A stretch of 64,000 nucleotides of DNA, taken from contig NC_009952.1 of NCBI RefSeq assembly GCF_000018145.1, positions 2,294,001 to 2,358,000 on the forward strand, given 5' to 3'. Positions within the stretch are counted from its first letter, which is position 1. Each line of letters starts with the position of its first letter. Positions 30,031-30,344 of this stretch are shown one piece after another. The stretch comes from Dinoroseobacter shibae DFL 12 = DSM 16493. Lineage in GTDB: Bacteria; Pseudomonadota; Alphaproteobacteria; Rhodobacterales; Rhodobacteraceae. Below the pieces are notes generated by a model, which did not search any database, was not told the DNA's origin, and worked only from the letters and a program-made list of their open reading frames with translations. The translations under genes and the position numbers were made by a program.

Positions 30031-30066
30031 TCACCTCGTAAACTTCTTGCATTTCGCGCGCGTTGG
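30031..30066 (-). repeat. Extra copy 1 of the ettA 3' end
   Basis: Translates PTRAKCKKFTR-stop, against [16 protein letters not shown] at the real ettA end. The AGG-TGA of this copy forms the ribosome-binding site of the low-G+C gene, whose GTG starts one nt beyond the stop. Confidence 0.75.
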
Positions 30067-30097
30067 CTGCGACCTGTCAAGTCACTGCCACCGGGTG

Positions 30098-30136
30098 CCG
30101 CACGCGGCTTTGCTACGCAAAACCGCTGCCGCGCAC
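30098..30136. repeat. Hairpin 1 between ettA tail copies
   Basis: Imperfect inverted repeat GCGG-C-TTTG/CAAA-A-CCGC at 30104-30126 followed by TGCCGCGCAC. The same hairpin and flank recur at 30226-30266. Confidence 0.65.
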
Positions 30137-30161
30137 TGATGGATGCCCGCTTACGCAAGCC

Positions 30162-30200
30162 TCAACGGGAAAACTTCTTATACTTCACGCGCTTGGGCTC
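30162..30200 (-). repeat. Extra copy 2 of the ettA 3' end
   Basis: Translates [16 protein letters not shown], one residue different from the real ettA tail, but several codons carry synonymous changes (AAG for AAA, TAT for TAC, TTT for TTC). Upstream of the shared tail, copies 1 and 2 also share ACCTGTCAAG, which the real gene lacks. Confidence 0.85.
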
Positions 30201-30225
30201 TAACCTGTCAAGCTACTCCTACCGA

Positions 30226-30266
30226 GTGCGCACGCGGTTTTGCTGCGCAAAACCGCTGCCGCGCAC
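30226..30266. repeat. Hairpin 2 between ettA tail copies
   Basis: Perfect 9-bp stem GCGGTTTTG/CAAAACCGC (30234-30242, 30248-30256) with outer pairing GTGCGC/GCGCAC (30226-30231, 30261-30266). No T-run on either side, so it is not a classical terminator. Confidence 0.7.
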
Positions 30267-30267
30267 A

Positions 30268-30344
30268 CCTCGAACCCAAGCGGAACTCCAACAAATACAC
30301 CCTAACGGGTGAATTTCTTGTATTTCACGCGCTTGGGTTCGAGG
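30268..30344. repeat. Large quasi-palindrome across the ettA stop codon
   Basis: A perfect 15-bp inverted repeat (30268-30282 and 30330-30344) brackets the ettA stop. The inner arms also pair well, with CACCC/GGGTG at the centre. The left arm reads on the plus strand as a degenerate, inverted copy of the ettA tail (LEPKR, then NKYT). Confidence 0.8.

Follow-up and report, generated by a model that had tools for sequence, protein, structure and literature searches.

Integrative elements with a tyrosine integrase that insert at the 3' ends of genes bring the tail of the gene along as a copy and displace the old one, and they are kilobases long and contain the integrase gene and cargo. The attC sites of integrons are hairpins at the end of a gene, in which the structure is kept while the sequence varies, and group IIC introns insert behind terminator hairpins, directly at the gene's end. 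On a smaller scale, REPs and REPINs are described, in the sections of the sources on which we draw, as short dispersed palindromes that lie mostly behind genes and have an imperfect stem with a bulge (PMC3733652, PMC8266576). CGTC-tagged palindromes, which include the Rickettsia palindromic elements, are found next to or in genes, with no known dedicated transposase according to the section that treats them (PMC3733652).

The locus compared with these systems here is the 3' end of ettA in Dinoroseobacter shibae (genome G000), within a window of 64,000 nt (contig C1:2294001-2358000); positions below are those of the window unless a contig is given, and all features of the array lie on the minus strand. 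The literature that we searched, most subscription journals being outside that search, held no description of a hairpin unit of this kind. The ORF for the energy-dependent translational throttle protein EttA (30302-31957, TIGR03719 above cut-off) ends in a tail that repeat detection finds in three direct copies, at 30033, 30164 and 30304, with spacings of 131 and 140 nt, and a GC hairpin is present twice between them (30099-30136 and 30229-30266, 95% identical). An earlier note on this DNA had pointed to these copies and to the repeated hairpin region, and the coordinates, the spacing and the repetition all hold. The array is real and above chance: we made an HMM from the ettA tails of 80 family loci and searched with it what lies downstream of these 80 genes (0.3-12 kb each, mostly 12 kb). 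The model ranked the two extra D. shibae copies on top (E 5e-8 and 0.0027), followed by one in G084 (E 0.084) and by four other matches at E 1.7 or worse, and it recognised no displaced tail more than about 270 nt from the stop. Folded as DNA, the array has z = -7.35.

Beyond what had been noted earlier, the working tail turns out to be part of a 77-nt imperfect palindrome, and the hairpin belongs to a dispersed family. A two-hairpin unit lies behind each of the two inner tails, with unit lengths of 131 and 140 nt in this genome. The working tail itself (copy 1, 30302-30346) comprises the last 14 codons and the stop of ettA and is of a foreign type, with 40/45 identity to G084 and 29-33/45 to four congeners. 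Together with the DNA behind its stop it folds into hairpin 1 of unit 1 (30268-30344), where the ettA tail makes up arm 1 and its inverted copy arm 2, the outer 15 bp of the arms (30330-30344 and 30268-30282) being 100% complementary. The conserved hairpin 2 follows directly (30216-30267; covariance model R2, 56.2 bits, E 2e-9, an instance in the model's seed), and then comes a short 3' end (30201-30215) that in the sequence abuts tail copy 2 (30162-30200), which is displaced and still has its stop (tail HMM E 5e-8). A small imperfect hairpin seen by eye across the copy 2 stop (30146-30169, inverted-repeat score only 4) is a possible hairpin 1 of unit 2, whose hairpin 2 lies at 30085-30137 (R2, 60.9 bits, E 2.1e-10, also in the seed) and whose 3' end (30070-30084) abuts tail copy 3, again displaced (30031-30069). 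One base behind the copy 3 stop is the inferred GTG start of an AT-rich orphan gene (29007-30029).

Comparison with relatives separates the tail of ettA from its body. Over the body (-300 to -51) the D. shibae gene matches four congeners at 197-220/249 (79-88%) and G084, a member of another genus, at 208/249 (84%), whereas over the last 45 nt the values are 64-73% for the congeners and 89% for G084, and the switch falls at the palindrome's outer edge, some 46 nt ahead of the stop. Since tail and body identities are reversed between the congeners and G084, the working tail came from outside the genus; over 39 nt, copy 1 has only 25-29 matches to five congeners. Copy 3 behaves differently, with its best match to the congener G004 (33/39), 31/39 to six further loci, one of them in a congener (G003), and 26/39 to D. 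shibae's own working tail. The margin of this assignment is small (33/39 against 31/39), and with that proviso copy 3 appears to be the native tail, displaced outward. Copy 2 is 31/39 identical to the working tail and up to 34/39 to other loci, and over 12 codons it differs from copy 1 at six places, five synonymous and one T to S, with the stop also changed. The statement that the copies differ mainly at synonymous sites is thus borne out for copy 2 (5/6) and fails for the more diverged copy 3 (26/39). The further suggestions that the tails resemble ettA alleles of other genomes, and that duplication in place would be insufficient to explain them, gain support from the origin of copy 1 outside the genus, the congener type of copy 3 and the synonymous excess described below; judged from these alignments, the three tails do not look like neutral local duplicates.

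Displaced tails are not peculiar to D. shibae. They are found just behind the unit at 7 of the 14 unit-bearing ettA loci, namely at 7/8 with a long second arm and at 0/6 with a short one, the tail in L315 being only marginally above its shuffles. In six pairs of displaced and working tails (pairs and spans picked by hand, with L315 and D. shibae copy 3 excluded) 31/47 differences are synonymous, and in G278 it is 9/9. The excess has a binomial p of 2.9e-4 against an assumed 40%, which is our own estimate for a gene copy free at synonymous sites only and a spare copy fully free, at equal rates. The boundary comparison with close relatives rests on G187, as congeners of G278 and G347 are outside the sample: relative to congener G455 the displaced tail of G187 scores 31/39 and its working tail 29/39, a small difference in the expected direction. 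By eye, arm 1 departs from the element type in its outer part in G187, G245 and G381, and therefore the left boundary of the unit would not always be the hairpin edge. At lepA, D. shibae alone passes the shuffle test for a displaced tail convincingly; the match in L275 is 14 nt long, and candidates seen by eye in L241, L264, L288 and L323 did not rise above their own shuffled controls.

How widespread is the unit? A first model of hairpin 2, made from nine instances, gave 31 matches in 19/147 genomes, D. shibae included, and the refined covariance model finds hairpin 2 in at least 65 of 394 family genomes, a lower bound because the filters were strict and some lepA units were found only by eye. 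Out of 106 covariance matches 105 were kept (the one dropped was an opposite-strand match in L331 that overlapped another), which gives 105 units at 96 loci, and 15 weak matches (E 0.0034-0.0096) stand outside this set. D. shibae has the most copies, 10, followed by G394 with 8, G347 with 7, G373 with 5 and G281 with 4, and the other 60 of the 65 genomes have 1-3 each. Overall the unit measures about 95-145 nt, with no gene inside. Tandem copies lie 94-143 nt apart at several genes and in several genera (a pair in L311, at 753 nt, is not tandem), and D. shibae itself has tandem units without a gene tail at C1:17766-18026 and C1:25128-25271. In G394, near-identical copies can be seen by eye at different places, which points to multiplication within one genome.

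Hairpin 1 is specific to the locus and abuts hairpin 2, with an inverted-repeat score of at least 10 in 50/105 units compared to 0/812 control windows from the same loci, while in hairpin 2 pairing is kept in 94.2% of cells with a covariation score of 0.455 versus 0.153 after shuffling, the alignment having been fitted to the structure, which favours the score. In single folds, arm 2 has the matching bases for wobble positions of lepA. A strong second arm occurs at 4/80 ettA loci, all four unit-bearing, and by eye hairpin 1 contains little or no gene sequence at infA and at a permease pair. To see whether hairpin 1 is a mere pre-existing terminator we looked at lepA, where 6/30 loci have a palindrome score of 10 or more and all six have hairpin 2 behind (three of them by eye). 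L341, with a palindrome score of 7.6, appears by eye to have a degenerate unit, and the scores of 7.9-8.8 at the unit-less lepA loci L346, L360 and L363 come from other hairpins. The motif CGTGCGGCACCCGGT taken alone is mostly chance-like outside ettA and the permease loci. At many loci we noticed by eye that CACCC in hairpin 2 could pair with GGGTG in the 20 nt behind it (CACCCGGTnGCAATnCTGGGTG), and this alternative stem might work as a switch or be recognised as a second site. Rfam gave no match at gathering score in the window, and for seven unit loci nothing above gathering score except one tRNA, with two matches far below theirs. One 111-nt unit query found nothing in plasmid and phage collections, nor did one exact hairpin pattern in viral contigs, and these searches turned up no enzyme, circle or mobile carrier for the unit.

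Of the 96 loci, ettA accounts for 14 and lepA for 28, together 42, and up to 32 of the remaining 54 come after a sense ORF of at least 60 aa, some of which may be spurious; the distance from the stop to hairpin 2 is mostly 14-39 nt. Targets named by NCBIfam are rplP, infA, rpsD, rpsO and bchY, at one locus each, and further putative members of these groups, a putative valS locus and the permease pair were assigned by inspection. Terminators seem, by eye, to follow the unit at some loci. Again by eye, the unit is reversed in six genomes at the permease pair, and also at a single tRNA locus. In the six (L234, L236, L238, L266, L280 and L284) the reversed unit is seen between two amino-acid ABC permease genes, and in some of them the ribosome-binding site of the second permease gene is inside hairpin 1. 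In G220 (L278) the unit appears to lie behind the first permease in sense orientation. Within the genus of D. shibae, the lepA unit is found in G000 and G005 and was not found in G001, G003 or G004, and the ettA unit is found in G000, G001 and G003 and was not found in G002, G004 or G005. On a tree of 52 lepA genes (the short row L317 was excluded) the presence of the unit changes at least 10 times, with seven changes forced by starred branches, a count that cannot separate gain from loss. Presence is also clustered on this tree, with 10 changes versus 17.3 when shuffled and 0/500 shuffles as low, and since this exceeds chance, much of it may be vertical.

The codons of lepA change with the unit close to the stop. 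Between 30 unit-bearing and 23 unit-less loci, five positions among the last seven codons and the stop differ at p <0.001 (AAA/AAG 8.7e-7, GCC/GCG 6.7e-6, GAC/GAT 2.9e-5, TCC/TCG 1.6e-4 and the last sense codon 5.5e-4), and of 32 upstream codons none does at p <0.01. These tests ignore relatedness, with the unit loci mostly from the 394-genome draw and the unit-less ones from nearer relatives; L341, L343, L351 and L355 were scored unit-bearing by eye, and L325 and L337, where the unit is 90-110 nt from the stop, were excluded. On the lepA tree AAA goes with the unit in five to six of seven independent pairs and, in nearly all pairings, against it in none (median p 0.031), while the GAC codon is not significant (median p 0.125). 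The corresponding ettA test, with eight long-arm units, is underpowered (best p about 0.004); there L102 and six unit-bearing loci were excluded from the unit-less group, and one row, L232, does not keep the register upstream of the tail. Read most simply, the codon differences at lepA mean that the unit comes with a gene tail of its own. Alternatively, selection on hairpin 1 itself could reshape the lepA codons, an account that is mildly disfavoured because AAA weakens the stem.

The ettA end seems to attract other DNA as well. In G003 and G083 the ettA unit is followed directly by the gene of a REP-associated tyrosine (RAYT) transposase (NF047646; 170 and 177 bits, cut-off 80), and with these two as queries RAYT genes are found within 1.2 kb behind ettA at 14/80 family loci, 2 with the unit and 12 without, and nowhere else in those stretches. 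In the first 1.7 kb, RAYT-bearing ettA loci are L036, L040, L047, L056, L061, L064, L076, L078, L080, L086, L092, L098, L099 and L109. The ettA end may be a home site of RAYTs. Counted from the units, a RAYT lies within about 1.5 kb of 5/96 loci (four ettA, one lepA), and at ettA it is present in 4/14 cases with the unit and in 12/74 without (p 0.27). A genome-wide scan for Y1_Tnp (PF01797) gave 6/65 unit genomes versus 33/329 others, with the 394-genome sets taken as the same, and says little because the model misses the RAYT of G083. No GTAG consensus was present at hairpin 2 in 28 aligned copies, and by eye the RAYT genes in G003 and G083 are accompanied by their own GTAG palindromes. AT-richer DNA of about 1 kb is found right behind ettA at 18 of the 68 loci with at least 4 kb downstream (the first two 500-bp windows at no more than 52% GC, and their mean lower by 8 points or more than the DNA farther out than 3 kb). 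Similar-looking genes were noticed by eye in the AT-rich stretch behind ettA in G002 and G021. Phage_integrase (PF00589) domains occur, among the matches listed, in all 90 genomes searched and are not specific for integron integrases. By eye, the integrase near ettA in G020 resembles a native gene of the Xer type.

The orphan has 340 codons from the inferred GTG (341 were used in the searches) and no family in Pfam, PADLOC, PHROGs or NCBIfam. Relatives occur in 7/294 other family genomes, two of them right behind ettA (G059, L370; G267, L373); an earlier protein search of genome contigs with the orphan had confirmed no relative. A partial N-terminal match to two Listeria phage records has 33% identity over query residues 23-136. 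Four relatives (L371, L372, L374 and L375) start with a CWC-x-SG motif, one of them beside phage-tail-like genes as judged by eye, and this start looks like a SEC-C-like motif. Among the scanned neighbours (the orphan, ettA, a MOSC-domain gene and an entericidin-like gene) there was no integrase. The entericidin-like gene encodes a small protein at 28507-28656 (PF08085, E 3.9e-7). Nearby, 28704-28935 holds two 77-nt direct repeats, 155 nt apart and 84% identical, with GCGCCCGG hairpins, and they may be another repeat family, because a similar hairpin is seen by eye behind the ettA unit in G085 (L094). The earlier note had suggested that the locus may be an integration hotspot, and the AT-rich DNA, the orphan relatives in G059 and G267 and the RAYT genes all speak for this: the ettA end looks like a single-gene insertion hotspot. 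The note also spoke of cargo kept at the locus. The orphan is not cargo of the units, since it sits outside them, one base behind copy 3; it looks like separate cargo of the hotspot. As a whole, the earlier interpretation is partly supported by these sequence comparisons.

What then produced the array? We think it slightly better than an even chance that it reflects two successive insertions of a non-coding element of 130-140 nt at the 3' end of ettA, with the tail replaced each time. The element would consist of its own copy of the target's last codons and stop, an inverted copy of this tail (together forming hairpin 1), hairpin 2 and the short 3' end. Each insertion would supply a new working tail and shift the previous one outward, and the outermost copy would therefore be the oldest and native. 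Comparison between genomes provides the working tail of foreign type, the displaced tail of congener type, the hairpins that abut, the recurrence at lepA and other genes and the pairing kept through sequence change, and from these we infer that the events were insertions of a defined unit. Counting against this reading are the searches that turned up no enzyme, circle or mobile carrier, the clustering of the unit on the lepA tree, the weak ettA codon test, the few displaced tails at lepA, the small margin for copy 3 and the mixed arms and gene-free hairpins 1 at some loci.

How might such an element move? In the proposal that we prefer, hairpin 1 in single-stranded form would fold so as to mimic a double-stranded gene end, which an enzyme acting in trans would join to the real one, as integron integrases use folded attC, and hairpin 2 would serve as the shared recognition part. 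A tyrosine recombinase, an annealing activity or a RAYT (HUH) transposase would be candidates, and we regard this joining step as doubtful. The full picture, in which a mini-element is mobile as a folded single strand, imitates the host gene end and swaps its last codons, possibly served by a RAYT, we hold to be quite doubtful. It would account for the inverted gene tail in arm 2, the covariation of the arms and the retention of the old tail on the outside. It does not explain the hairpin 1 without gene sequence at infA and the permease pair or the mixed arms in G187, G245 and G381, both of which we see by eye.

The strongest rival to tail replacement by insertion, in itself unlikely, is a structured 3'-UTR element under selection at the RNA level, for example for mRNA stability or processing, inherited vertically and occasionally moved by ordinary homologous recombination, for whose spread the two-tail array would offer homology. 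The 42/96 loci behind ettA and lepA together with up to 32/54 others behind a possible ORF, the short distance from stop to hairpin 2, translation targets such as infA, rplP, rpsD and rpsO, the pairing kept through sequence change, clustering on the tree and the apparent terminators behind the unit at some loci would all be natural for such an element. It is harder to see why it should be reversed at six permease loci and a tRNA locus and yet in sense at the same permease place in G220, why near-identical copies should sit at separate places of G394 (all by eye), and why codon type should change near the hairpin edge. Improbable to our mind, and overlapping with the insertion reading, for which it would supply the enzyme, is a REP-type repeat mobilised by a RAYT (HUH) transposase. 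In its favour are the small and dispersed hairpins, which have an internal bulge, the RAYT genes right behind the unit in G003 and G083 and the RAYTs behind ettA at 14/80 loci (though 12 without the unit), and TnpAREP acts on folded single-stranded REP in vitro (PMC8266576). Against it are the missing GTAG tag at hairpin 2 in the 28 aligned copies, when the RAYTs of G003 and G083 appear by eye to have GTAG palindromes of their own, the RAYTs near only 5/96 unit loci with no significant enrichment at ettA (4/14 vs 12/74) and, for the little that it says given the missed G083 gene, the Y1_Tnp scan without association.

Two further readings have to be weighed against the insertion of a small unit. 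Local tandem duplication of tail and hairpin followed by drift would account for the 95% identity of the two D. shibae hairpins 2, which also fits a local copying step, and for the tail-less tandem units elsewhere in the genome; copy 3 matches a congener better than the gene that it follows and the working tail is of foreign type, both of which already tell against duplication, and with the synonymous excess in six pairs as well it is very improbable. The earlier note's own explanation was that of decayed large islands at a hotspot, which had lost their tyrosine integrase and left scars. Restored and displaced tails are what such islands leave behind, and ettA does look like a hotspot. However, the repeated thing is a small two-hairpin unit behind many genes, with the same hairpin 2 at unrelated targets and tandem copies only 94-143 nt apart at several genes and genera, and no distant tail was recognised beyond about 270 nt downstream of the 80 ettA loci, which makes island scars exceedingly improbable.

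If the insertion reading is true, the C-terminal codons of the core translation genes ettA and lepA in some Rhodobacteraceae-type genomes would have been exchanged by a tiny non-coding element and not inherited with the gene. This would be a new route of gene-end turnover and an unexpected class of miniature mobile DNA. It would clearly predict a gene-end enzyme with folded DNA as its substrate, and the unit would become a marker for gene-end replacement that could be tested in strain collections. Should the folded-strand proposal also be true, the element would follow an integron-like logic with the host gene's own coding end as the attachment site.

Each of the known systems thus shares some features with the unit and differs in others. 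CGTC-tagged palindromes are likewise palindromic, have no known dedicated transposase and can adjoin genes, while the carrying or displacing of a gene end is not part of their description in the section that treats them (PMC3733652), the comparison being by description. REPs and REPINs resemble the unit as short dispersed palindromic DNA, mostly behind genes and with a bulged stem in the sections used here, the unit being present in 1-3 copies in 60 of its 65 genomes, and RAYT genes are frequent at the same ettA end. In contrast to them, the unit has no GTAG at hairpin 2, has a second hairpin that follows the target gene (ettA or lepA) and comes with displaced tails. Group IIC introns have in common with it the position directly behind a hairpin at the gene end, whereas the unit, at about 95-145 nt and with no Rfam match in the window, has no intron-sized body. 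To attC it is similar in keeping structure over sequence and in its position at the gene end. The outer arms of the ettA unit, GTCGAAC and GTTCGAC, are by eye within about one base of the R-box consensus but do not match it exactly; the unit also differs in having no cassette gene and in that its hairpin 1 copies the tail of the host gene. Finally, compared to integrative elements at gene ends the unit is too short for an integrase gene, and yet it has the very arrangement that marks them, a tail copy at the edge with a displaced tail beyond, at half of the unit-bearing ettA loci.
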